From a virus, in the IMG/VR virus record IMGVR_UViG_3300010354_000861, positions 1-20,681 of that record: 20,681 nucleotides of DNA. One strand, given 5' to 3'. Shown one piece after another: positions 995 to 20,369 of the stretch. The notes under the pieces are model-generated. The model did no database searches. It was not told the origin of the DNA and worked only from the letters and a program-made list of their open reading frames with translations. Positions within the stretch are counted from its first letter, which is position 1; each line of letters starts with the position of its first letter. Both the position numbers and the translations under genes were made by a program.

Positions 995-3702
995 TACGCA
1001 TATCCAGTGGTCATCACAGAATAATATGTTGTTCCATCATAGAATATGCTTATTAAATCAATAGCGTTAGCTGTAGTGCTAAGTGTTTTAAATCCTACTG
1101 CAAATTTATATGCAGCATTAGCAGTCATAACTTTACTTCCTGTACCATCCTGCTGAATGATAAGTGTCATACTTTGACCAGCAACCATACCAGTAGCTGC
1201 GTTTAGTGTGAAGTTAGAGTTTGCAATATATTTCTGTACGCTGCCGTTGTCGAAGTTTGGCGTAATAGCTGTACCAGTATTTCCTGCGTCAAGATAACTA
1301 TCAACGAACTCAGCGTTAACAGTCATTGAAAGGTTTCCAGTATCAGTAAAGTTTACGCTACCAGAACCTGTTAGATTTCTACCGAGATTGACTGTCAGTG
1401 TTGGTTTGTTTACTAGAGTTGCCCAGTTAGCAACAACTGCCTCTTCAGCAGAAGCAGTAAGTCTACCATAAGCATCAACAGTATAACGTGGCACATTAGT
1501 TGCAACAGATGCAGTTCCAGCGTCTCCGTATGAACCTGCTGTTACTCCAGTTGCAGGAAGATCGATATTAACGATAGTAGTTTCTTTAGAAACAACAGCA
1601 TACGCAGTAGCACCCACTCCTGGAGTAACGTGAGAATCAACGATTGTTACTGTTGGCTCTGTTCTATAGCCAGTACCAGCATTCGTTAGAGTAATTCCAA
1701 CTACAGTATGTGTTCCGATAGTTGATGTCACAACTGCATTAGTTCCACCGCTTGGTGCGGTATCAGTAATTGTTACAGTTGGCGGCAACAGATATCCAGA
1801 GCCAGCATTATTAATCGTTACTCCTGTTATTGTTCCGCCAGTAATAGCTGCAGTTGCAGCTGCGTTGCTTCCATCTCCACCGATAGTAACAGATGGCGCA
1901 GTTAAGTAACCTGATCCTGCATTAGTGATAGTAATCGAAGCGATACCAAACTGCCCTATGGTACACGATGCAGTTGCATTAGTTCCGCTTCCTGTAATTG
2001 TTACGGATGGTGCACTTAAGTATCCAGAACCTGGATTGGTTAAAACAATTCCAGTTACTGTTGAGGTTCCAATTGTTGCACTAGCAGAAGCATTTGTGCC
2101 ACTGCCAGAGAGTCTATTGATCGTTACAGTTGGTGGCGAGAGATATCCAGATCCTTGGTTTAATACGTCAATACCAATAATGCTTGACGTTCCAATAGTA
2201 GCGGATGCTGTAGCTGATACGCCATCGCCAGAGATTGTTACAGTTGGAGCAATCAAATAACCAGAACCAGCATTAGTTAGATTAATACTCTCTACAGTAA
2301 ATTTACCAATAATAGCAATAATTTGCGCACCGACACCTGGATTTGGATCTGTGTCTAAAATTGTAACAGATGGTGGATTTAAATATCCAGAACCTGCGTT
2401 TGTAATATTGACATCAATAATTACACCAGAAGAAATAACTGGGACGCCAGTGGCAGTGACACCACCTGGTTTTTCTGGAGCAGAGAAAGTAATAGTAGTT
2501 GTTGCTGCGTGATATCCAGAACCACCAATAAGACCAACGTAACATTGGATAACTGGTGAACCAGAGAATACTACTGTACCAGTGGCAGTAACGCCACCTG
2601 GTTTTTGCGGTGCTGAAAAAGCAACAGTTCCGTTGGTATAAGCAGCACCTATGTTGGTGATTGTTGTTCCAGTAACAGCAGCTCCAGACAACTCTGCTTG
2701 GGCAGTAGCGTTAACTCCACCAGCAACTTGTGGTGCAGAAATTGTAACTGTTACGTTTCCATTGGTATATCCAGAACCACCAATTAAGTTAGTAATTGCA
2801 GTGATTGGAGAACCTGACAGAGAAACAGTACCAGTAGCAGTAACGCCACCTGGTAATGTTGGAGCAGAAAATGCTACGTTAGCATTACCAAATGTATATC
2901 CAGATCCTGCGTTAGTTACTGTTACTGTTTGAACTCCATTGCCAGTAAAGTTTGCAGTTCCTGTTGCAGTAACTCCACCAACAACCTGCGGGGCAGAGAA
3001 TGTAACAGGAGCAGTTGTATATCCAGTACCCTGTGCTGTGATAGAAACACCGCTGACAGATCCACCAGATAGTGTTACGTTAGCAGTTGCTTGAACACCT
3101 CCAACTTTATCTGGAGCGGAAAGAGTTGCTGTTGTAGTTGGGTGACGATATCCAGTACCAGCATTAGTGATAGTAAATCCAGTAACCGCAGCACCAGAAA
3201 GTACAACTGATGCAGTTGCTTGTGTGCCACCAGCATCATCTGGAGCAGAAATTGTTACTGTTGTATTTGGATAATGGTAACCTGATCCATTGGTTTGTAA
3301 AAATAGTCTCCAAATTGCACCGAAAGGATCGATAGGATCTGGCGGCATTAATGTAATGTCAACTGTTTCTAGTGGCGAATAAACTGCAGAAACATAGTCA
3401 CCCTCAGTGTCGATACCAAGAACAACTGCGTTATGGACAACAGTTGTTGGCAGAGTTATGTTTCCCTCACCATCAAATGTTACGTTTCCGCTAACGTCCC
3501 CAGTTAGCGTCAATGTTCTATTTGCATTTAATGCATTAAGAGCTGCTACTATGTTTGCTTGAGTACTGGTAGTAAGAAGTGCAAGATCACCAACATTTAA
3601 TACCGTCTGATTAGACTGGGTTATTGTACCGTTAGTTTTTTGTCTCCACTGGTCAAACGTATCAGTTTGGGGGACTGTGATAACTGGAGTTTGAAGAGCC
3701 AT
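994..3702 (-). CDS. Fibre-like protein with GSGY repeat array
   Basis: This 902-residue protein probably forms an elongated trimeric fibre or appendage. Residues 1-60 (TDTFDQWRQKTN, LNVGDLALLTTS) resemble the attachment end of tail-fibre proteins in T4-like marine phages, and GDVSGNVTFDGEGNITLPTT at 68-87 is a common fibre motif. Residues 135-705 are fourteen GSGY repeats. Residues 706-805 (YTVDAYGRLTAS, ATLVNKPTLTV) are typical of fibre shafts, and residues 806-902 form a separate C-terminal module (VQKYIANSNFTLNAATG, MTLIIQQDGTGSK, LISIFYDGTTYYSV), probably for trimerisation or tip function. The start shares one base with the previous stop (TAATG) and has a TAGGT ribosome site. The stop shares one base with the next start. 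The receptor-binding part could lie here or in the downstream proteins. Confidence 0.85.
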   Translation of the reverse strand: MALQTPVITVPQTDTFDQWRQKTNGTITQSNQTVLNVGDLALLTTSTQANIVAALNALNANRTLTLTGDVSGNVTFDGEGNITLPTTVVHNAVVLGIDTEGDYVSAVYSPLETVDITLMPPDPIDPFGAIWRLFLQTNGSGYHYPNTTVTISAPDDAGGTQATASVVLSGAAVTGFTITNAGTGYRHPTTTATLSAPDKVGGVQATANVTLSGGSVSGVSITAQGTGYTTAPVTFSAPQVVGGVTATGTANFTGNGVQTVTVTNAGSGYTFGNANVAFSAPTLPGGVTATGTVSLSGSPITAITNLIGGSGYTNGNVTVTISAPQVAGGVNATAQAELSGAAVTGTTITNIGAAYTNGTVAFSAPQKPGGVTATGTVVFSGSPVIQCYVGLIGGSGYHAATTTITFSAPEKPGGVTATGVPVISSGVIIDVNITNAGSGYLNPPSVTILDTDPNPGVGAQIIAIIGKFTVESINLTNAGSGYLIAPTVTISGDGVSATASATIGTSSIIGIDVLNQGSGYLSPPTVTINRLSGSGTNASASATIGTSTVTGIVLTNPGSGYLSAPSVTITGSGTNATASCTIGQFGIASITITNAGSGYLTAPSVTIGGDGSNAAATAAITGGTITGVTINNAGSGYLLPPTVTITDTAPSGGTNAVVTSTIGTHTVVGITLTNAGTGYRTEPTVTIVDSHVTPGVGATAYAVVSKETTIVNIDLPATGVTAGSYGDAGTASVATNVPRYTVDAYGRLTASAEEAVVANWATLVNKPTLTVNLGRNLTGSGSVNFTDTGNLSMTVNAEFVDSYLDAGNTGTAITPNFDNGSVQKYIANSNFTLNAATGMVAGQSMTLIIQQDGTGSKVMTANAAYKFAVGFKTLSTTANAIDLISIFYDGTTYYSVMTTGYA
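1588..3300 (-). repeat. Array of fourteen GSGY beta-repeats, two subtypes
   Basis: GxGY-type motifs fall at residues 138, 181, 224, 265, 308, 351 (degenerate, IGAAY), 393, 436, 478, 516, 557, 595, 633 and 675 of the fibre-like protein, that is every 38-43 residues. Copies 1-7 share SAPxxxGGVxATGT between GSGY motifs. Copies 8-14 share P[ST]VTIxGxGxNAxAxATIG instead. The DNA has matching imperfect direct repeats, for example around CCAGAACCAGCATTAGT. The regular spacing suggests one short beta unit per repeat. Confidence 0.9.
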
Positions 3703-3905
3703 TATTGTTTACCTATTAAAGTAGCGAGCATCTCTTTTATTTCTGACATATCTTTTTTAAGACTATCAATTTCTTGTTTTTGTTTAGCCATCATATTACG
3801 TTTCTCAACGTAGTTCTGATATTCTTTGCTATTAGTATTTATGATAGCCTTACTAGAGACATCTCTAACAAGACTATCATTACCTTCAACTTTGTAGTAT
3901 TCCAT
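3702..3905 (-). CDS. Small coiled-coil protein between DUF4815 and fibre genes
   Basis: This 67-residue protein starts MEYYKVEGNDSLVRDVSSKA, then IINTNSKEYQNYVEKRNMM. Its C-terminal half is a coiled coil with regular 3-4 spacing of hydrophobics at I46, L49, M53, I56, L60 and L63. An ATG nine bases upstream in the same frame is possible, but 3905 forms a TAATG overlap with the DUF4815 stop, the same arrangement as at the two junctions downstream, so it is preferred. Its own stop overlaps the fibre gene start by TAATG. Small proteins of this form occur in tail and neck regions of T4-like marine phages, but I know of no assigned function. A trimeric adaptor or assembly factor for the neighbouring large proteins is a reasonable guess. 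Confidence 0.8.
   Translation of the reverse strand: MEYYKVEGNDSLVRDVSSKAIINTNSKEYQNYVEKRNMMAKQKQEIDSLKKDMSEIKEMLATLIGKQ
3831..3843 (-). promoter_or_regulatory. Candidate late promoter, CATAAATACTAAT, inside the 67-residue gene
   Basis: On the minus strand the bases CATAAATACTAAT differ from the extended T4 late promoter TATAAATACTATT at only two of thirteen positions. It would start transcription roughly 125 bases before the fibre-like gene at 3702 and allow extra expression of the fibre genes. It lies within codons for IINTN, so coding constraint may explain it. Confidence 0.4.
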
Positions 3906-6900
3906 TATGCACAAGCAACTATTCTAAGATCTTTAATACGTGGAACTCTACAATTATTTGTACTTCTAAAGACTATCTTAATTTGTATAGCATCAAAAGA
4001 AGGCAGATCTTTAAGACTGTAAACTCCATCAGTGAAATCTAATCCTGTATTTGACTTAACTAATGGCGTGTCAGGAGTTGCTTTAATATAAGGTGTTTCC
4101 TCGAATGCTGTAGTTGCACCAACTTTATTCAATCTATAATATACATCAATATCTGAAGATGTTGGAACACAATATGCAAATCTTATATTGAAGAACGTAG
4201 ATGGATTTGCTAAGTTAACACGCTTAGAAATATATTTGCTATATTGCGATCCACTACGTGAAGCAATTTCGTCAACAAAGTTATTTAAGACGTTAACATC
4301 TATAGTTCCAGCAGTTCCTGCTCCAGCTGCTGCAACGGTAAATGTTTTATTAACCTTAACATAAGAACCATCAGGTGCAACTTCAGTAACTAGAGCGATA
4401 CCACTGTTACCAGTTGCTAATGCTCCATCAATTCTGATATATCTTCCAACTGGAATAAACGATAGTTTCTGTCTGTCACCAGAATTAGCTGTAGTTATTC
4501 TATCAGCAGCAAATGCTATAGTAACACTATTATCGACTAAAAGAACATCGTCTACTGGACTTATATTCATATTTAACGGTGTAGCATTATTTACCTTATT
4601 GTGTATTGCAATCAACGAGGTTCTATGAGTGTCAATGACAGGCGAAACCGAATCATTTGTAGAACTCATAACGGCAGCTAGTTCAAAGGATCTAGATCCA
4701 CTTAATAACTGCTGTTCGTTTAGTTCAGAAGCAATAATTTGAGGTTCATCAAAGTTTGTTACATCATTAATTGTGACAGGAATAGGAATAACACTCTGTA
4801 TAAATGGTGTTTCAGTTCCATCAACAGACTGCCCTGAAGTAGTTGTTGCCTCCCATGTTAAAGATGCATCTGGGAATGTTTGAACTTGAGAGTTTGCTTG
4901 GATAGAAGTTAATAAAATATTATCACTAGCATAAACATTCTCACCACCAGCAAATCCAGTTAAATTAGCAGTGCTTGATGTACCAGTTAATGTTATCGTA
5001 TATGAGTCTAAATCTGCTGCTGTAACAGTATGCACGGCATTAAATCTAGCACCTAATATTCCGTTATATAACTGGGTTGCATTAAATCCAGAAAGTTGTA
5101 CCTTAGAGCTAACTGGCATATTATGATTCTCATGCCACACTCTAACTACAGAACTTCCATTTGTAGTTTGAATTGGATTAACATCTAATTTAGTTCTTGG
5201 AAGAACATCATTGTTAAATTCAACTCTACCAGTTACTTGAGTATTAAATTTTGCTCTGTTAATAATAAAGCAAAGATCTTTATAATCATCTGGCGTCCAC
5301 GTGGAAGCATTTTGAGATTTAAAGAAAACTCCTTGATATGGTTGTTCAGATACGAAACGATCTGTTCCTGGAATCTTATCCCCTAAATGAGAAACCCATA
5401 CGTTATAATTGTTAGAGTCTGATATGATAACAATACAATATTCTGTTCCGTCTTGAACATATACTGGACTAGAGAATGTAAATCTTGTCGCTATGTCTGG
5501 AGCAGAAGCAAGTTTATTATTCATAGATGGTATTGCAACTTTTCTAGAAGCAATATTTACATCCTCAGGATTTTTAACTACCTGGCTAAATGGAAGGATT
5601 TTCTTTCCTGGATAGCCGTTGACAACTTCACGAATCTCGATCTTTACTGGGATATTTTCATCTTTAGTAGCAAAGAAAAGATCTACTGAAGTTAGGAAAG
5701 CACCACCTTTTTGCTGCACCAAGAAAGTTTGCGCCAGCGGATCATACCAACCTGTGTCACTGACAACCCTAGTGGAAGTGTCAACAATTGTTCTTGACTC
5801 CTGAACTGTTTCTTGAGCAATAACTCCGTTTCTCACAGCTTCAATTGTTGCTTGTTTAACTTGCAATATACCTTCTGCTTTATAGTCAGCTACTCCATAA
5901 GAATTATAATCATCTTCATAACCAGTAGAGTCTATTAATCTAAACTCTCTAGTGCCAGTTCTAAATCGAACAGCTTCTGTGTTTGGAATATTAAACAAGC
6001 CATATAATGACCCATTGAAGTTAGTTACTAATTGCTGACCTTGTGTTTTTGGAGTAACTGTTGCATTAATCTTTCCTCGAGCACCTGAGATATTACCAAC
6101 AACGACTTCGTTAACTTGGAATATGCCTTTTATATTAAGGACATAAATTGCTCTGGCACCAGTTTCATTACTAAGTTCTGTTCCAACTACTACAGCTGTA
6201 GCACCTGAAGTTTGACCAGTAATAACATCCCCTCGATTTAATCCAACTTGTGGAGTATCCGATGGATCTCCATTTATTCTTCTTGCTGGATCGCTGGCAG
6301 TTGAGCCAGCATTTTTCTTAGATTCAAAATCTGAAGAAAACCCAGTAACAACATCAAATGAAATTTTAGTTGCTGGCGTTATATACTTTGAAACTGCTGA
6401 CGAGTCAAAAAAGGCATAAAATTTAGTAGAAGGTTTTAATCCAGTAACTTGGAATAATACATTTCTACTTCTGATATATGGAATAACAGCAGTAGAAAGA
6501 ACTCTATCTTCAACCAAACGTCTGTCTATTTGTACTGCTACAGTTGTTCTTGTTCCAGTTCTTGTTTGCCCGATATCTGTTGCAGTAACTTCTGCGGTAA
6601 CTCTTCTAAACGCCCAACCACCTCGATCTCGTGGACCTGTACCAAACGTAGCATCTAACCAGGCACCTTGATCGCCAAATCTTCGATCTGCTGTAAATGT
6701 TTGAAGACCAGTGCTTCTAGGCTGACCAGACCATTGCGTCTGCCAGGAATTCCAAACTGTTCCTAAAACTCCTGCTTTTTCTGCTAAGGTTTTGATACTA
6801 TTGAAATTACCCTCAACGTTGACAATGACATCAGGTCTTCTCTCAACTTCAAACCAATCATCTGATGAGGGGTTTAAATCTATTCTTCCAATAAAAGTAA

Positions 6901-9900
6901 AAACTGCAAATGGATTGACGTTTTCTGTTCTTGAAGATATATTTTGCTTAATGAACGCAAGTTCTGTATATGGAAGAGTTATTATATCTCCAGTAGCTTG
7001 GTAATTATTAAGTGTTCTCTGTCCATCATTAGATGCCTTCTCAACTAAATTGACATTCTCCATTCTAAAAAATGGACGAAGTTCTTTTTTATCTAAATCA
7101 ATAGAGCACTTATAGTCTGGATCTTCAGCATTACCTATTCCATGTCCTGAAAATGAATCTACTAAAAATCCATTTTTAAATCTATCTAATCCATTCTCAT
7201 CAGTTATCTTAGAATTAGCAGTTTCTGTTTCTAACATATTAAGAGTTGTATAATATTCTAAGTTATCGATACGTTTCTCTAACTTACCGATATCTCTCAT
7301 TGTATATCTCTTATTGTCAACAGGAATTAATGTGACATCTGGAGATTTTGTCGTATATGTATATGGATATAGATTAATTCCATATAACAACATAGCATTT
7401 TGAGGAGTTTCTGGCTCTACTGGAGCTAAAGAAGGAATTCCTCTTGTCGCAAAAAACTTTCCTCTAAAATCAATAGAAATTTTATCACTTCTTGCTAGGT
7501 AATAAGATAGATCTAATTCTACATTGTCACCACGTTTTGGTAACTCTGACAATACTGCACCCAAATTTATATTAAAAGTGTTAGAAGAATCAACTCTAGG
7601 TCTAAAGTCTAATACATCTCGTGAAGGAAAATTTCCATATTTTGGAAGATCTTCAAATTTAATACCAGAACCAACATATGAATCTACAGAGAAATAATCT
7701 CCAGGTCCATGCTGGAAATAATCAAAAACGACTTCAATTGAACCTGTTGGTAAAGGATATCCTTGTTTTAACAATAACTTTGATGTACCATAAAAAGAGT
7801 CAGTTATATTAAAGTCTAACTCATAATAATCAAGTATATCGATATTTGCAGGATTTTGCTCATCTATGTTGCCAAACGCATTAGCCATTTTTATAGAAAC
7901 TAAGTTATAAACGTCTGCTTTACCTAAAATAATTTCTTTAGCCTGAGCAGCTGCCTGTGTTTCTACTTGAATAGTTTCAAATGTAACTGAAGTTTTAGTT
8001 TTTTCTTTTGCTCCGTTGCCTGTTTTTCTAACGGCAGCATAAACAACAAACTGATTATTTGCCTGAGAACTTGGTAACGTAAATTCAACCTGACGTAATT
8101 CTGGGGTAACTACGTTTATATTTGTAGGTATAACTGGAAGACCAGTAGTAGTGTTTATTAACACATAGTTTTGTGGATCGCTAGCTGGCAAAAATGTTTC
8201 GTTATTTCTCTTGCTATCGATAACTACATAAGAATTTCCATTTGTGACTGCACTAGAAGCCACAGTAAATACTTGTGTTACATTATAAGAAGTTCTTACG
8301 GTTGTATCATCATCGCTTCTTATTTTTCTAATATTTGAATATGGCAGTTCAAACAATAATGAAGAATATTGAGGTTCCTGAAGAGTAGTTAGAACTTTGT
8401 AAATAACTGTTCCAGTGACTGTAACATTAGAATCTACTACTATTGTGTTATCATTTGTTATAGAAACAATTCTTCTCAATGTGCTAGCATTGCCAAGAGC
8501 AATATAATCGCCAGGATTGAAATCGGTATCAAATGTCGTTCCATTTCCAGTAACAGTTGTTGAGTTTGATGCTGTTGCTGATCCTGTTAGTTTAGCCAAT
8601 AAAGGAGATATATTTGCAGTAAAATTAGAATTATGAAATCCTTTCAAATCATTATCTAATGACTTTCCAGCTATTAAATTAATATCAAATAACATCAACT
8701 CATAAACATCTTCAGAAACAGTATTCTGACGATCGAAAAGATTTAATCCGCGAACTCTTGCAGTACCAATTTTAGTTGCACCAGATGGTGCAGATCCAGG
8801 TGTTGTTACCAGTCGATCATATAAATCTACTGTTTCAAACAAATTAATTCTAGGTGCACCAAATATATTCTTCACATAGATGTAATTACCAACTATACTT
8901 TGACACTGTGCGTCCTGCGCTCTTGAGAAATCTCTTGCTTTATCTACAGGCAAATACTGTACACCAACTTTTTCAATCTCATAGCCACGGACATACGCTT
9001 TGCCTGGCTCCATGGCGATAGCAAGTTTAGCCTCATTGCCACCATCTTCTGGTGAATAAACTCCACGATTATAGAATGGATTTTTATTGTATAGCCAGGT
9101 CACACCAGTTTCTGCATCTTTTTTCTCACCTGTTGTATGAATTGGAGGAGAGCCTCCTGATATTGCATTATTTTTAGCAACATACTTTTGTTCAATACCG
9201 CCAAAAGTATAAACTACAACATCGCCTTGTAAATATACAGTGTTTGTTTTCCACTCGCCTCGATCATTATTTCTATGCTCTCTGACTTCAACATTAAAAT
9301 TGTTCACGACGTAATCGCCAGACTCATCAAACGTGCGTCTAGCTAATGTCTGTTCTATAATTGAATAATCTGTAGTTCTTGTTTTGTAAATAATTTTACC
9401 TTCTTCTAAACGAAGAAGTTCTACAAAGTTTTTATCATCCTCAGAGTTTAATGATCTTTTGGAAAGAACTAATTCAATCTTATATCGATGCGCTCCTGGA
9501 GCTGTATAATTAGAAGAACCAATAGCATTATCTAATAGATCGGCATTATCTTCTGGTGTCACCAATGTTTCTACGACATTTAAGCCAACACGATATGATG
9601 GTGTTGCAGTATATTTGTCAAGAGTAATTTTCTGTGCTTCAACTATGACAAAGAATTTATCAACGTAATAAACTCCAGACTCAATAGAAGCACCAGTACC
9701 TAAACCAGTCGCAGATATTGCAACTGATCTAAATGCTCTTGGAACTGCTAGTGTTTCGCAACTAATAATCTCGTCATTTTGGAAAACCTTAACATCTGTT
9801 GGATTTCCGTCAGCATCAGCACCAGATTTATTATAACGAACATATACAGTTGGTGGGTCTTCATCTGTTTGTTTTTCAACATGAAGAACGAATGCCTTAA

Positions 9901-10213
9901 CTCCAGATGATTGCCCGATAATTTCTTGCCCGACAATCTCATTAAGGTAAGTATTTACATCAACACCATTGTAAATAGACTGAAGTTTAACATATTTAAA
10001 ATCATCTTCATACGAAACCTGTCCAGGAATAACCATCGATCCCTGCTTAAATACATGCTCAGCGTGTTTTGAAATCTGATTTTGTAAAAGAGATTGTATC
10101 TGAGTTAGTTCTCTTGCTTGGACAGGATATCCTGGACGGAACAATAAACGATAAAATTTATCGTTCTCGTCATAATCGTCAAAATATGGATCTATGTTAA
10201 AATTTAGTGCCAT
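3905..10213 (-). CDS. DUF4815-type giant virion structural protein
   Basis: The longest gene here encodes 2,102 residues. The N-terminus carries the DUF4815 signature: FDDYDENDKFYRLLFRPGYP, then VQARELTQIQSLLQNQI and HVFKQGSMVIPG. Near residue 1490 is DPLAQTFLVQQKGGAFLTSV, followed by VNGYPGKKILPFSQV, a block I associate with large structural proteins of marine T4-like phages. The end (YISKRVNLANPSTFFNIRFA, VYYRLNKVG, VPRIKDLRIVACA) is beta-rich. TSGA-type modules occur near residues 95-108, 1327-1338 and 1374. By position after gp8 it probably takes the place of the outer baseplate pin and fibre-attachment proteins (T4 gp9, gp10, gp11), none of which I find here. No signal peptide or transmembrane segment is seen. 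The exact place in the virion is inferred. Confidence 0.88.
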   Translation of the reverse strand: MALNFNIDPYFDDYDENDKFYRLLFRPGYPVQARELTQIQSLLQNQISKHAEHVFKQGSMVIPGQVSYEDDFKYVKLQSIYNGVDVNTYLNEIVGQEIIGQSSGVKAFVLHVEKQTDEDPPTVYVRYNKSGADADGNPTDVKVFQNDEIISCETLAVPRAFRSVAISATGLGTGASIESGVYYVDKFFVIVEAQKITLDKYTATPSYRVGLNVVETLVTPEDNADLLDNAIGSSNYTAPGAHRYKIELVLSKRSLNSEDDKNFVELLRLEEGKIIYKTRTTDYSIIEQTLARRTFDESGDYVVNNFNVEVREHRNNDRGEWKTNTVYLQGDVVVYTFGGIEQKYVAKNNAISGGSPPIHTTGEKKDAETGVTWLYNKNPFYNRGVYSPEDGGNEAKLAIAMEPGKAYVRGYEIEKVGVQYLPVDKARDFSRAQDAQCQSIVGNYIYVKNIFGAPRINLFETVDLYDRLVTTPGSAPSGATKIGTARVRGLNLFDRQNTVSEDVYELMLFDINLIAGKSLDNDLKGFHNSNFTANISPLLAKLTGSATASNSTTVTGNGTTFDTDFNPGDYIALGNASTLRRIVSITNDNTIVVDSNVTVTGTVIYKVLTTLQEPQYSSLLFELPYSNIRKIRSDDDTTVRTSYNVTQVFTVASSAVTNGNSYVVIDSKRNNETFLPASDPQNYVLINTTTGLPVIPTNINVVTPELRQVEFTLPSSQANNQFVVYAAVRKTGNGAKEKTKTSVTFETIQVETQAAAQAKEIILGKADVYNLVSIKMANAFGNIDEQNPANIDILDYYELDFNITDSFYGTSKLLLKQGYPLPTGSIEVVFDYFQHGPGDYFSVDSYVGSGIKFEDLPKYGNFPSRDVLDFRPRVDSSNTFNINLGAVLSELPKRGDNVELDLSYYLARSDKISIDFRGKFFATRGIPSLAPVEPETPQNAMLLYGINLYPYTYTTKSPDVTLIPVDNKRYTMRDIGKLEKRIDNLEYYTTLNMLETETANSKITDENGLDRFKNGFLVDSFSGHGIGNAEDPDYKCSIDLDKKELRPFFRMENVNLVEKASNDGQRTLNNYQATGDIITLPYTELAFIKQNISSRTENVNPFAVFTFIGRIDLNPSSDDWFEVERRPDVIVNVEGNFNSIKTLAEKAGVLGTVWNSWQTQWSGQPRSTGLQTFTADRRFGDQGAWLDATFGTGPRDRGGWAFRRVTAEVTATDIGQTRTGTRTTVAVQIDRRLVEDRVLSTAVIPYIRSRNVLFQVTGLKPSTKFYAFFDSSAVSKYITPATKISFDVVTGFSSDFESKKNAGSTASDPARRINGDPSDTPQVGLNRGDVITGQTSGATAVVVGTELSNETGARAIYVLNIKGIFQVNEVVVGNISGARGKINATVTPKTQGQQLVTNFNGSLYGLFNIPNTEAVRFRTGTREFRLIDSTGYEDDYNSYGVADYKAEGILQVKQATIEAVRNGVIAQETVQESRTIVDTSTRVVSDTGWYDPLAQTFLVQQKGGAFLTSVDLFFATKDENIPVKIEIREVVNGYPGKKILPFSQVVKNPEDVNIASRKVAIPSMNNKLASAPDIATRFTFSSPVYVQDGTEYCIVIISDSNNYNVWVSHLGDKIPGTDRFVSEQPYQGVFFKSQNASTWTPDDYKDLCFIINRAKFNTQVTGRVEFNNDVLPRTKLDVNPIQTTNGSSVVRVWHENHNMPVSSKVQLSGFNATQLYNGILGARFNAVHTVTAADLDSYTITLTGTSSTANLTGFAGGENVYASDNILLTSIQANSQVQTFPDASLTWEATTTSGQSVDGTETPFIQSVIPIPVTINDVTNFDEPQIIASELNEQQLLSGSRSFELAAVMSSTNDSVSPVIDTHRTSLIAIHNKVNNATPLNMNISPVDDVLLVDNSVTIAFAADRITTANSGDRQKLSFIPVGRYIRIDGALATGNSGIALVTEVAPDGSYVKVNKTFTVAAAGAGTAGTIDVNVLNNFVDEIASRSGSQYSKYISKRVNLANPSTFFNIRFAYCVPTSSDIDVYYRLNKVGATTAFEETPYIKATPDTPLVKSNTGLDFTDGVYSLKDLPSFDAIQIKIVFRSTNNCRVPRIKDLRIVACA
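6059..6256 (-). repeat. TSGA-type beta module in the DUF4815 protein
   Basis: Approximate residues 1320-1385 contain GLNRGDVITGQTSGATAVVV and, about 40 residues on, FQVNEVVVGNISGARGKINA. The paired 'G/N-[DE]-x-[IV]-x-G-x-[TI]-SGA' turns match the module in gp8 at 10372-10614. A single related copy (GQEIIGQSSGVKAF) lies near residue 95 of the same protein. Confidence 0.6.
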
Positions 10214-16089: not shown

Positions 16090-16482
16090 TTATCGAGTTC
16101 TTTCTAATACTAGCTCTAGCGTAGCAGGTCTTTGTGTATTTAATATTCTGTAGTACAAGGTCACGGTTACGTAGTTTTCATCAGGGGCAGCTTTCACAAT
16201 AACATTGTCTAGGTTAACTCTCGGCTCAAAGGTATTAACCACGGAATAAATCGCCCTCTCAATCATTGTAGTCATCATTGGGCTGTATGGCTCAAATAAT
16301 ATCCCTTTTATTGGGGTTCCAATTTCGCTATGGAAAGGTCTCTCATAGTTATTGGTTAAAATTAGGTTTTTTAACGCAGCTTTTATAGCATTATCGTCAA
16401 ACCGACGAGAAATATCATTAGTTACTGGATGTGCAGTAAAATTGAGGTCTAAATCTGAGAAAGTTCTAGTAGAGCGAGCCAT
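16090..16482 (-). CDS. 25: gp25-like baseplate wedge protein
   Basis: This 130-residue protein belongs to the gp25/GpW family: YERPFHSEIGTPIKGILFEP at residues 46-65 is the family signature, followed by an amphipathic helix (MMTTMIERAIYSVV) and a beta hairpin ending VTLYYRILNTQRPATLELVLE. gp25 sits in the inner baseplate with gp6 and gp53 and helps start sheath polymerisation. The frame extends 17 codons upstream to another ATG at 16533, but that extension would overlap the PAAR gene by 37 bases and its residues are unlike the family. Homologues usually begin close to MARSTRTFSDLDLNF, so 16482 is chosen. The stop codon is directly followed by the gp6 ATG with no gap. Confidence 0.93.
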   Translation of the reverse strand: MARSTRTFSDLDLNFTAHPVTNDISRRFDDNAIKAALKNLILTNNYERPFHSEIGTPIKGILFEPYSPMMTTMIERAIYSVVNTFEPRVNLDNVIVKAAPDENYVTVTLYYRILNTQRPATLELVLERTR

Positions 16483-16496: not shown

Positions 16497-16793
16497 TTAT
16501 TCTATAAAAGAGTTGGGAGAACCTTGTCCACAAGTGTCTCCACAGGATATTGGGTCGCCTATTCTAGAGGCTGGATTGCCCTCTATAAAGGTTTTGCTAG
16601 CTCCAGATGCAACTGATCTGGACGGAGTAGGGTGGACGACTATTCCGCACACGTGAGTAGAATGCTGGCTTCCAACGACACACGCCAAAATACCATTGAA
16701 AAAAGTTTTACTTACAGAAGTAACAACCAGAGGAGTCGGTGGGAAACATCCATGTCCTGTGGAAATGTCCCCTAATCTACTAACTGCTGGCAT
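16497..16793 (-). CDS. PAAR-type spike tip protein
   Basis: This 98-residue protein has the PAAR layout: MPAVSRLGDISTGHGCFP at the start, VSKTFFNGILACVVGSQHSTH in the middle, then GASKTFIEGNPASRIGDPISCG. PAAR proteins fold into a small cone that caps the trimeric gp5/VgrG needle and forms the piercing point, held by a zinc ion bound by His and Cys side chains. Candidate ligands here are H14, H44, H47 and C84, and there are other cysteines at 16, 38, 49 and 88. T4 gp5.4 is the equivalent. The ATG lies inside the end of the previous gene and has a GGAG sequence 10 bases upstream, so it may be started both by coupling and by its own site. Confidence 0.92.
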   Translation of the reverse strand: MPAVSRLGDISTGHGCFPPTPLVVTSVSKTFFNGILACVVGSQHSTHVCGIVVHPTPSRSVASGASKTFIEGNPASRIGDPISCGDTCGQGSPNSFIE

Positions 16794-17295
16794 ACGATAC
16801 TAACTCCAAAAGTGATTGTTGCCCTGGTGTCCAGTTTCTGTCTCTGGCATAAATTGTAAAAACCTGAGAAGATCTAACTGTATTATTAACATTTAATGCT
16901 TCAGCCAAATATGATAATAATCTTTCTCTAGTCATATCTGGGGTGAACGAAATAACCTGAAACAAATTAGCTCTATCGACCTTAGTCCAAACACTACCTT
17001 CTGGCGCTCCTAAAGTTGTAACTGTAGACAACTTCAGATCATTAGAAAGCGTAGTCAAAGAGTCGTTAAATATTCCTTTGTAATAACCAGAAATACCCCC
17101 AGGATTTCCACTGGTAAATGTAACTGTTGGTCCATTCGGCTGCTGTGGAGTTATCCTTACATTATAGTAAGTACGAGCCTCTGCTTCGTCTTCTTCATAA
17201 TATGATATACTATAAGAAAAGTTTTGAAGTTCTGGATGTTCGCCCAAGTAAGATGAGGGTGACTCTTCATTTTGACCAGAAACTGCCCAACTCAT
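16780..17295 (-). CDS. Uncharacterised 171-residue protein between gp5 and PAAR tip
   Basis: I do not recognise this family. The protein is acidic near its N-terminus (YYEEDEAEA at about 32-40), has no signal peptide or membrane segment, and mixes beta-rich stretches (ARTYYNVRITP, PTVTFTSG) with a helical end (DMTRERLLSYLAEALN; WTPGQQSLLELVSYASS). Its ATG shares one base with the gp5 stop codon (TAATG), and its end overlaps the PAAR gene by 14 bases. That tight placement between spike and spike tip suggests a structural or assembly role at the hub, such as an adaptor or chaperone for the PAAR cap. This is inference from position only. It does not resemble gp53 or gp5.4 of T4. Confidence 0.8.
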   Translation of the reverse strand: MSWAVSGQNEESPSSYLGEHPELQNFSYSISYYEEDEAEARTYYNVRITPQQPNGPTVTFTSGNPGGISGYYKGIFNDSLTTLSNDLKLSTVTTLGAPEGSVWTKVDRANLFQVISFTPDMTRERLLSYLAEALNVNNTVRSSQVFTIYARDRNWTPGQQSLLELVSYASS

Positions 17296-20200
17296 TATGC
17301 TGCTCTTGGAGGTATTGTAGAAACTAAAACAAACCCATTTTTATCAAATGTTTTATCATTCACCATAGTAAATGCTGTTTTACGCCCACCGTTCACATTA
17401 AACGAAGAATGAATCCATATTTTATCTGGGTGTCGATACTCAAGAATCATTTGGTCATATGAGCAAACTTTTTCCATTTGCTGAATTATTTCGTAAGTTT
17501 TATTGTATCTATCTGGAACAAGCAATCCGATATCTACAGCTCTACCCTTACAATGGTCGGATGTTGGCGACTCATATGGGACAACTCCTTTTAAGCGATA
17601 GCCAGAAGTAATAGCCCATTGTTTATTATATCCACCGATACCACCTGGCAGAACTTCAAGAGCAGGTTCTAAAATATTCTGCACGGTATTTGCCAAATTA
17701 CATACAATTTCTTGAACTGTAAATGTTCTTTCGGCAGATTCTTTATTTTCTTTTAGTTGTTGATCTATAAGTTTATGCTTGCCGCCAAATCCGCCAGAGA
17801 TTAACATACCTAAAGTAAAGTTCTTAGATAAACGATAATCACCTGTAAATGATTTGGTGCTAAAAATTATAGAACAGTCTACCGATGTTTTTGCTGTAGC
17901 ACCACCTCTTGGTGCTGGAGCAGATTCTGATGCTTCTGGCGCAGGCGCTCCAACAATTCCTGTTTTTCTCTGATCTTCTGCCTGCTTTGCTCTTCCTTCT
18001 GGTGTCTCTAAATCATCAGGAGTTTCAACTACTGTTCTTTCTTCAAACTCACGCTCTGGCGGTATTAAGTAAGGAACTATAGGATTAATAGGATCACCAA
18101 GTGCTGGCGCTGGCAACTCAATAGCCTCAACATCATTAGCACCAGAAGCACCGTTACCAAAGTTACCAACTGAGTAGTCCATATTTGTTGAACCACCAGA
18201 AAGATAATTTGATGCCCCTTCTGCTTCAATATTTGTAGTTGCACCCTTTACGCTAATGCCACCTGTCGCTTGAGAATCGAAATCTCCTTCTGACTTAACT
18301 CTAATGTTAGCTGCTTGTATATCAAGATCACCAACGATCTTCATCTTCATGTCACCGCCAACTGCCAAAGTTGTATCCGTGGCAACACCTATTGATAAGT
18401 TATTTCTAACTTCAACTGTTGCGTTATTCTCAACTGCAATATTAGCATCTGTTCTGACGTAGATATTCGCGTTTCCCTCAACAGTCAAATTGCACTCACC
18501 CTTAACACTAATACAGCCGTTGCGCTCCATAACAACAAAGTTGTCGCCAACGATATAATTTACCTGCGTGCCGTTAGGATCTACTTCTTGGAATGTTCCA
18601 GATCTATGGAAAGTATGAATGCGCTCTTGTCCTGGCGTATCATCAAACTCTTGTACATGCCCAGATTCTGTTTCGAATACTTTGTTATATGGATACTTTG
18701 CACCAAATGGTGCTTCTGGTTGATCCCAGTTTCCTTGACCTAATGCCTTAGGAATTTGCTTAACTCTAGTGTTATCTTTCTTCTTAACAATTGTACCTTC
18801 AATAACACCGCGAGCCAATCTGTTTGTATCTGGTTCTCCCATATACTCACTTAGAGGATACTTGCTGTTTGGATCTCTAAATCCATAAAGAGCAGCGCCA
18901 GAGTTTATACTTTGCTCAGATGGTCTTGGAGTAGAAGAATCTCCATCTTGTGGTGGTTGCGAAGTTGGTGGACCAGCATTTTTTTCTTCGCTGCCAGTTC
19001 CAGACAAACCGTAAAAATACTCATAGTAGTTTTGCTTTAACGCTGCAATATCTGGTGTATTTACACCAACTGCTTTTTTAGCTGCAAGAAAATAACTTGG
19101 GTGATCATTTGGTGATACACCTTTAACTCGATCTTTGATGTACAAAGCTGCAACCAAAGCAGAAACATTTATATCAGCATCAAGAGAATCTGGATTGTTA
19201 ACAATATCAATATTCAATCCAGTTTGATTAGCAAGTTTCTGATACTTCTCATAATTAGCGCGACCAGTTAACTGAATAAATCCACGACCAAAATACTTAC
19301 CGCCATCAGCATCTGTTTTATTGCCAAGGAAATTTTTACCACGTTTGGTTGGACCATATGCCCATGAGAAAAACTCTTCTCTCGTCACACCCTTCTTAGT
19401 GGCGTTGCCATACTTTTGCACGTCTTCATCAGTTGCAAAAGAATAGACCTGTTTGAGTCGCGCCTCGCTATAATTAAAACTCTCCAACTGTGGGATCCAT
19501 CGAGATTCACCACCAGCAATACCAAGCAGTGCACACTTTTGTTCTTTAGTTGTCAAACCAACTTTATCACAAGCTGCAATAAGTGCTTTAATACCATCAG
19601 TAGACTTCGCTGGCTGCGGAGATGATTTTGGTGGAGGAACAGTCGGTATTGATGAATTTGACGATGCAGCAGAATTTGGTGTATCTGAAGAACCAGTTGT
19701 TATTGGTGTTCCGCTACCAGAAACAACAGGGTTACCAGAACCGTCAACTAATATACCAGTTTGGGCTACACTTTGTCTGACTGCATCTAGGTTACTAGGA
19801 ACTGCCTCAAATGTAATAATATTTTCTACATAATTAGATACTACGCTACTAATTGTAATTTCAGTACCGCTATTAATAGAAACAATAAATGTTTCTTTAG
19901 CAATATCATGGCCAAACACTTTCATGTTGGCTTTTAAATCTTTTGTTAGATCATTTCGACCATTCTCAGGATCATAAAATGTTAGTTTATTACCACTAAC
20001 TGGTCCAGGAATAGTTCTAAGTTTAAGATTGGAAAGTTTTGTAGATCCAGTTAGTGGAGCATTACCGTCTAACTCAATAATGCCTGGAGGTGTAGCAATA
20101 CCACCTAAAGTGCCAAGCATAATTGGCTGCTGCATGTCGTCATCAGCAAAAAATACAATAACTGATGTTCCTTCAACTGGACCAATTGGTGTATGACCAA

Positions 20201-20369
20201 TACCGTTCATAGCAGCAGAAATAACTGGCTGCATTGGATATGACCATGGCAGGTCATCTGTTGGTAATTGATTTTTGTCGTGTGTATGAACGCCAACTAT
20301 TCTTACTTGGCAACGTCCAAGACTTAACGGATCAATTCTGTTCTCAACTACACCTGTGTATAATTTCAT
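17295..20369 (-). CDS. 5: gp5-like baseplate hub spike with GH19-type lysozyme, beta-helix needle and M15 peptidase domains
   Basis: This 1,024-residue protein is the expected central spike of the baseplate. Residues 1-95 are a gp5/VgrG-type OB fold (MKLYTGVVENRIDPLSLGRC, later PIGPVEGTSVIVFFADDD). Residues 257-455 are a GH19-type glycoside hydrolase: GGESRW with likely catalytic E288, LESFNYS with E296, and GRGFIQLTGRANY at 361-373. T4 gp5 has an unrelated GH24-type lysozyme at the equivalent place. Proline/serine-rich linkers flank this domain (about 240-256 and 465-486) and could be cleavage sites. Residues 603-720 are octapeptide beta-helix repeats. After an acidic, Pro/Ala-rich linker, residues 831-1024 look like an M15 peptidase: TSGYRL, SDHCKGRAVDI (H939, D946) and WIHSSF (H987) give the three zinc ligands. 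It starts in an ATGA overlap with the upstream hub gene and ends in a TAATG overlap with the next gene. Activity of either enzyme is inferred from motifs. Confidence 0.93.
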   Translation of the reverse strand: MKLYTGVVENRIDPLSLGRCQVRIVGVHTHDKNQLPTDDLPWSYPMQPVISAAMNGIGHTPIGPVEGTSVIVFFADDDMQQPIMLGTLGGIATPPGIIELDGNAPLTGSTKLSNLKLRTIPGPVSGNKLTFYDPENGRNDLTKDLKANMKVFGHDIAKETFIVSINSGTEITISSVVSNYVENIITFEAVPSNLDAVRQSVAQTGILVDGSGNPVVSGSGTPITTGSSDTPNSAASSNSSIPTVPPPKSSPQPAKSTDGIKALIAACDKVGLTTKEQKCALLGIAGGESRWIPQLESFNYSEARLKQVYSFATDEDVQKYGNATKKGVTREEFFSWAYGPTKRGKNFLGNKTDADGGKYFGRGFIQLTGRANYEKYQKLANQTGLNIDIVNNPDSLDADINVSALVAALYIKDRVKGVSPNDHPSYFLAAKKAVGVNTPDIAALKQNYYEYFYGLSGTGSEEKNAGPPTSQPPQDGDSSTPRPSEQSINSGAALYGFRDPNSKYPLSEYMGEPDTNRLARGVIEGTIVKKKDNTRVKQIPKALGQGNWDQPEAPFGAKYPYNKVFETESGHVQEFDDTPGQERIHTFHRSGTFQEVDPNGTQVNYIVGDNFVVMERNGCISVKGECNLTVEGNANIYVRTDANIAVENNATVEVRNNLSIGVATDTTLAVGGDMKMKIVGDLDIQAANIRVKSEGDFDSQATGGISVKGATTNIEAEGASNYLSGGSTNMDYSVGNFGNGASGANDVEAIELPAPALGDPINPIVPYLIPPEREFEERTVVETPDDLETPEGRAKQAEDQRKTGIVGAPAPEASESAPAPRGGATAKTSVDCSIIFSTKSFTGDYRLSKNFTLGMLISGGFGGKHKLIDQQLKENKESAERTFTVQEIVCNLANTVQNILEPALEVLPGGIGGYNKQWAITSGYRLKGVVPYESPTSDHCKGRAVDIGLLVPDRYNKTYEIIQQMEKVCSYDQMILEYRHPDKIWIHSSFNVNGGRKTAFTMVNDKTFDKNGFVLVSTIPPRAA
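17298..17879 (-). other. M15-type zinc peptidase domain at the C-terminus of gp5
   Basis: These bases encode residues 831-1024. After a helical lead (LSKNFTLGMLIS, TVQEIVCNLANTVQNILEPAL) come ITSGYRL, SDHCKGRAVDIGL and KIWIHSSFN. The H-x6-D pair (H939, D946) and the downstream H987 are the usual M15 zinc ligands. Family members are D-Ala-D-Ala carboxypeptidases or L-Ala-D-Glu endopeptidases acting on peptidoglycan stem peptides. Which bond this one would cut cannot be read from the sequence. Confidence 0.82.
18210..18563 (-). repeat. gp5 octapeptide beta-helix needle
   Basis: These bases encode residues 603-720. Eight octads in clean register run from residue 620: ISVKGECN, LTVEGNAN, IYVRTDAN, IAVENNAT, VEVRNNLS, IGVATDTT, LAVGGDMK, MKIVGDLD. 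Two looser octads precede them (VNYIVGDN, FVVMERNG), and shifted copies such as ISVKGATT follow. This matches the VxGxxxxx repeat of T4 gp5, where three chains intertwine into a triangular needle. The register slips after about residue 688. Confidence 0.85.
19005..19601 (-). other. GH19-type muralytic domain within gp5
   Basis: These bases encode residues 257-455 of the gp5-like protein. The domain shows the GH19 layout seen in many phage and prophage endolysins: ALLGIAGGESRW with the first acidic residue, then ESFNYSEARL, then the GRGFIQLTGRANYEKY signature, and a helical end. GH19 members cut chitin or the glycan strand of peptidoglycan. In a tail spike the expected role is local cell-wall opening during DNA injection. 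Confidence 0.85.

Follow-up and report, generated by a model that had tools for sequence, protein, structure and literature searches.

A gp5-type spike of an uncultured T4-like phage that ends in a predicted M15-type zinc peptidase domain, a candidate mobile cargo of the needle tip

The window analyzed here is the complete viral record IMGVR_UViG_3300010354_000861 of IMG/VR, a stretch of 20,681 bases from an uncultured T4-like phage. A megablast search of the whole window against phages gave no match, and no close relative was found among the named phages. The gene of interest encodes a homologue of gp5, and is followed downstream by the genes for a 171 amino acid protein, a PAAR tip protein and the baseplate wedge protein gp25 (Table 1); the rest of the window codes for baseplate and tail proteins. 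The separate PAAR gene reported in the first-pass annotation was confirmed. For gp25 a longer alternative reading frame, with a TTG start, begins at 16533. Within the run of baseplate genes, positions 3905-10213 of the window encode a 2102 amino acid protein that matches phrog_358, a family of unknown function, with an E value of 0.

From the N to the C terminus, the gp5 homologue is made up of an OB fold, a GH19-type lysozyme domain, a triple beta-helix, a linker and an M15-type domain. The whole protein matched phrog_430 of the PHROGs collection at 3.1e-91, and it has both the OB domain and the triple-stranded beta-helix of a T4-type gp5 spike, although the hit to Gp5_trimer_C (PF22178, E value 1.8e-4) lies below the cut-off of that family. 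The lysozyme domain in the middle had been taken for one of the T4 type, and this has to be corrected, since the domain found there is GH19-like (PF00182, phrog_181) and not GH24. Such a replacement does not exclude the protein from the gp5 group, because the lysozyme slot varies among relatives. It is occupied by GH19 in the window and in phage BUCT-ZZ01, by Phage_lysozyme2 in phage Cr30 and in L081 (one of the loci collected for comparison), by a VgrG3-like domain (PF21277) in L152, and by a VanY-like domain in the OB protein of phage Melnitz; no lysozyme-slot domain was seen in the gp5 of phage pf16. The match in the L152 gp5 (L152:4651-7275) is to the C-terminal domain of VgrG3-like proteins of the type VI secretion system (T6SS), with an E value of 1.3e-43. 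Melnitz (L007) has its gp5 in two proteins, one with the OB and VanY-like domains (2413-3453) and the other with the helix and M15 (3453-5456).

Table 1. Features of the gp5 gene, its domains and its neighbors in the window
Feature	Position	Strand	Evidence	Remark
gp5 homologue	17295..20369	-	1024 aa, single open frame; PF06714, PF00182, PF22178, phrog_430	baseplate hub spike, two predicted peptidoglycan hydrolase domains
Gp5 N-terminal OB domain, aa 1-95	20085..20369	-	PF06714, E 1.2e-23	
GH19-like lysozyme domain, aa 257-455	19005..19601	-	PF00182, E 2.4e-6, above its cut-off; phrog_181 endolysin, 2.4e-21	
Triple-stranded beta-helix, aa 557-735	18165..18701	-	Gp5_trimer_C; local profile 557-701, E 5e-61	end at 735 approximate
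Linker, aa 736-830	17880..18164	-	composition	Pro/Ala/Glu-rich second half
Conserved linker motif, aa 766-793, PYLIPPEREFEERTVVETPDDLETPEGR	17991..18074	-	linker alignment	
M15-type zinc peptidase domain (predicted), aa 831-1024	17298..17879	-	profile, homologue and fold evidence	
H939	17553..17555	-	69/69 conserved	predicted zinc ligand
D946	17532..17534	-	69/69 conserved	predicted zinc ligand
E977	17439..17441	-	68/69 conserved	candidate catalytic base
H987	17409..17411	-	69/69 conserved	predicted zinc ligand
171-aa protein between gp5 and PAAR	16780..17295	-	beta-sandwich model, phrog_1168-type family	possible tip accessory
PAAR tip protein, 98 aa, unfused	16497..16793	-	PF05488, E 2e-9; NF033420, 2.5e-17	
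gp25 baseplate wedge	16090..16482	-	PF04965, E 1e-11; phrog_261, 1.6e-44	ATG start

The first-pass annotation had placed an M15-type domain C-terminal to the gp5 beta-helix, and residues 831-1024 (17298-17879) were indeed found to form one. The zinc ligands it had named, H939, D946 and H987, are present at these positions. The profile search of residues 831-1024 that it had proposed as a check gave M15 matches at the level of the family, whereas Pfam stayed below its cut-off when given the window sequence alone: Peptidase_M15_3 (PF08291) was matched with an E value of 0.092 by the whole gp5 and of 0.0061 by the domain alone, which scored 17.1 bits against a curated cut-off of 23.2 bits. Because of this score the single-sequence test is only suggestive, and the family-level tests were taken as decisive. 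In PHROGs the domain matched the endolysin family phrog_894 at 5.7e-10, and 36 of the 69 relatives matched PF08291 (best E value 2e-7), with the domain of phage Astolliot above the cut-off. In an alignment of 69 M15 domains (A3), whose identities fall to about 27%, the three ligands are invariant together with R925 and W985, and E977 is present in 68; a chance match to the motif is ruled out by the conservation of the ligands. The ligand pattern H-x6-D ... H coincides in alignment with positions S/H/D/H of hedgehog proteins, and a profile-profile comparison with free M15 endolysins gave an E value of 1e-42 over 152 columns.

Structure prediction agreed with this assignment. The AlphaFold2 model of the domain has a pLDDT of 96.2, and its best match in the PDB by Foldseek was 1lbu, the Zn DD-peptidase of Streptomyces albus (probability 1.00, E value 5.7e-3, with a TM score of only 0.43), followed by hedgehog proteins, ChiX, and endolysins or L-Ala-D-Glu endopeptidases. 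Among predicted viral folds the best match was a 1025 amino acid Gp5-OB protein of an uncultured phage (TM score 0.97). When the domain profile was searched against PDB sequences, nothing significant emerged, only weak matches to hedgehog and Ply500. In L012, the domain is 91% identical to that of the window and the dN/dS between the two is 0.125; with the one open frame of the gene, these values rule out a frameshift artefact in the window. Since the three-ligand pattern, the fold and the profile match of the M15 family were all found, we regard the C-terminal domain of this gp5 as a predicted M15-type zinc peptidase.

The Pro/Ala/Glu-rich composition ascribed to the linker was borne out (13 P, 11 A and 11 E among the 81 residues 750-830), but its description as a plain flexible tether was not, since the motif at 766-793 is conserved and the length is nearly constant. 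When compared with the closest full-length orthologues (L015, L016, L018, L099 and L104), 91-95 of the 95 linker residues align, at 52-61% identity, and the dN/dS of the linker against L012 is 0.136. The motif is also present in relatives that share only about a third of the residues of the M15 domain, and its profile, run against all ORFs of the collected loci, matched only M15-bearing gp5s or their truncated pieces, including the divergent L027 and L032, which were absent from the training set and were matched at about 1e-5. Another conserved block, in the L119/L121 family, remains on gp5 when M15 is a separate gene; in L121 the split comes at unconserved linker residues, and gp5 keeps the conserved part. 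The two genes of L121 lie 18 bases apart in different frames and could therefore reflect a frameshift. The split form shows only that the M15 domain can be separately encoded. We infer that the spike has a docking element in this motif and that the true spacer is the stretch of about 35 residues after it.

To see the M15 domain as an addition to gp5, as the first-pass annotation did, is correct as to its presence and incomplete as to its distribution. Eighty gp5s in IMG/VR contigs, three of them cut by a contig end, were sampled through the beta-helix and without regard to M15; of the 77 untruncated proteins in this sample, which is biased toward relatives of the window, 58 end in M15, five are followed by a gene for M15, and 14 are without it. 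The same gp5 C-terminal domain was found, in a search from the M15 domain, in the named phages Cr30 (Caulobacter), pf16 (Pseudomonas), BUCT-ZZ01 (Synechococcus) and Melnitz (Methylophilales), and it is also present in UniProt A0A6J7WXM8; Cr30, pf16 and Melnitz differ from the window in the lysozyme slot, and the annotations of all five proteins are automatic. The M15 family lies instead on PAAR in the Pseudomonas phages PA5oct and Voja-6, the Vibrio phages 1.244.A and 207E48.1, and in Astolliot and Milchi. A gp5-PAAR-gp25 neighborhood is seen in Voja-6, 1.244.A and 207E48.1, but not in PA5oct; in those of these four phages that have gp5 in the locus, it ends at or soon after the helix. The PA5oct record carries an ESI-MS/MS flag for the PAAR-M15 protein. 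In many enterobacterial T4-like phages gp5 ends at the helix.

Sorted by carrier, the distinct M15 domains number 82 on gp5 (with four more on contig-truncated gp5s), nine on PAAR, five on an adjacent gene and 40 elsewhere, the last being mostly free and endolysin-like. A gp5-type gene, in every case without M15, is seen in seven of the nine PAAR-M15 loci, while the other two have no gp5 in view; no locus carries M15 on both gp5 and PAAR. Among whole larger records, 21 of 23 contain M15, and 20 of these 21 have a single copy; BUCT-ZZ01 has a second, free copy beside its spike copy. The domain is missing from Vibrio phage K353 and from HTVC008M, and K353 matches 1.244.A in gene order, yet its PAAR is a bare protein of 100 amino acids. 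In the domain tree, which is a quick tree with many weak nodes, free endolysins form a group of their own (SH-aLRT 98) apart from the spike-borne domains, and the starred branches show at least two changes of carrier for PAAR and four for adjacent genes. L121, with M15 as the adjacent gene, is sister to the fused L119 with a support of 100. No PAAR match was found in the records of the M15-bearing gp5s of pf16, G006 and G007 (L004 and the records behind L040 and L044), so that coexistence with PAAR is not universal. From these sequence comparisons, the M15 domain appears to be a mobile cargo of the needle tip that is carried on gp5, on PAAR or on an adjacent gene.

Other domains occupy the same places. 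In the gp5s of L161 (3675-5903), L168, L169 (2545-4593) and L170 a CHAP/TIGR02594-type domain stands at the C terminus in place of M15, and in L150 gp5 ends with PG_binding_1 and M15 is the next gene; judged by their families, these occupants either act on peptidoglycan or bind it. In the free endolysins L063 and L065 a single chain combines GH19 with M15, the same pair of enzymes as in the window gp5; free M15 endolysins thus share the peptidase family and this pairing with the window, but lie outside any spike. The alternative cargo, the enzymes of the lysozyme slot and the GH19-M15 endolysins point to peptidoglycan as the probable substrate.

The 171 amino acid protein has homologues at the same position in about 19 loci. 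Among these are Vibrio loci that have PAAR-M15, for which the match is weak, and a single locus whose M15 is an adjacent gene. Relatives of the protein match phrog_1168, whose function is unknown. Its model (pLDDT 85.8) is a beta-sandwich that gave no significant fold match in the PDB. The protein could be an accessory of the tip or an adaptor.

In T4, the end of the gp5 beta-helix is locked by the PAAR protein gp5.4 (PMC4576200). The window shares with T4 gp5/gp5.4 the OB fold, the lysozyme slot, the triple-stranded beta-helix, and the PAAR and gp25 genes nearby, but the helix is the last part of T4 gp5, which stops at residue 575, whereas the window protein adds the linker and the M15 domain and has GH19 in place of the T4 lysozyme. 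Enzymes fused to VgrG or PAAR are found in T6SS (PMC6899460, PMC10433429), where members of a single metallopeptidase family are found fused to VgrG or to PAAR, or as free cargo (PMC6899460). The evolved VgrG and PAAR proteins, notably VgrG2b, resemble the window gp5 in having an enzyme fused past the spike beta-helix and in exchange of the carrier; the peptidase of VgrG2b is of another kind (HEXXH). An evolved VgrG has gp27-like and gp5-like parts in one chain and lies in a T6SS cluster, whereas the window protein starts at the gp5 OB domain, unfused to gp27, and lies among phage baseplate genes. The window gp5 probably works like an evolved VgrG without being a member of that group.

We consider it likely that this gp5 is a trimeric spike with two cell wall enzymes for penetration, GH19 beside the shaft and M15 at the tip. 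The domain order, the fold, the invariant ligands, the carrier exchange and the purifying selection were computed here; the trimeric display at the tip, the substrate, the order of action and the kind of bond are inferred. The GH19-type glycan hydrolase would sit beside the shaft, at the site of the T4 lysozyme, and the linker with its conserved, docking-like block would attach M15 to the C-terminal end of the beta-helix, at the tip. Since the C terminus of gp5 would lie, as in T4, at the end of the helix locked by PAAR, the M15 domains would surround the tip and be the first to meet the wall, ahead of GH19. On contraction of the sheath, the PAAR-capped tip would cross the outer membrane, the three M15 domains of the trimer would cleave stem peptides or cross-links where the needle enters, and the glycan would be cut by the GH19 domains as the shaft follows. 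Candidate bonds for M15 are D-Ala-D-Ala, D-Ala-mDAP and L-Ala-D-Glu, among which the sequence does not discriminate.

Release of the M15 domain from the tip, by cleavage or shedding at the linker, to act as a soluble periplasmic enzyme seems unlikely, and we know of no protease site in the gp5 linker. Such release would fit the Pro/Ala/Glu-rich stretch that precedes the domain, the five loci in which M15 is a separate gene together with the L121 break in an unconserved part of the linker, and the periplasmic site of action of T6SS spike metallopeptidases (PMC6899460); however, L121 may be a frameshift, and the purifying selection on the linker, with its almost constant length among close orthologues, speaks for docking rather than for a tether to be discarded. 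It is quite improbable that the domain has its role in assembly, by maturing the spike itself or as a C-terminal folding chaperone. T4 gp5 is cleaved during maturation. C-terminal chaperones, sometimes cleaved off, are frequent in fibrous proteins (PMC4576200), but the closest relatives of the domain are peptidoglycan endolysins, CHAP takes the same place in other gp5s, M15 is also found on PAAR, where chaperoning of the helix in cis is impossible, and relatives such as Vibrio K353 and HTVC008M lack the domain altogether.

Service mainly at lysis, with an endolysin made in cis with gp5, would agree with the profile similarity to endolysins and with the report that Melnitz has no lysin-like genes other than the candidate gp67 (PMC9004378), although in our analysis the Melnitz gp5 parts carry M15 and VanY-like domains. 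We hold it to be very improbable, as spike-borne and free endolysin domains are separated in the tree, BUCT-ZZ01 has one copy of each kind, and the domain is surrounded by the late structural genes gp5, PAAR and gp25. That M15 is a catalytically inactive, peptidoglycan-binding relic, as its weak Pfam score might suggest, is scarcely credible in view of ligands and an E977 kept down to about 27% identity and the low dN/dS. The M15 domain is most likely a second penetration enzyme.

More broadly, and as a tentative proposal only, T4-like phages may possess a general cargo slot at the needle tip, which each genome fills with a single M15 (or CHAP) enzyme borne by gp5, PAAR or a separate subunit; the motif PPER..E....ETP-D/E-D/E..TPEGR would dock the cargo or its carrier to the tip, and the exchange system might be shared with type VI spikes. 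A 2021 survey of jumbo phages described phage PAAR proteins as standalone, 'unfused to any effector domain', and took this state as ancestral (PMC7824862); the PAAR-M15 proteins, including that of the jumbo phage PA5oct, disagree with this statement. In the open-access literature we found no paper describing a gp5-M15 or PAAR-M15 fusion, and nothing relevant on M15 with gp5 in cyanophages or as a virion-associated hydrolase, which is weak evidence of absence.

Loading of enzymes onto the tip, which has been treated as a T6SS trait, thus appears to be common in a wide group of T4-like phages, and exchange among spike, PAAR and separate gene has until now been known mainly from bacterial type VI spikes. 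Natural pairs with and without the domain, such as 1.244.A and Vibrio K353, make a role in entry testable in culturable phages.
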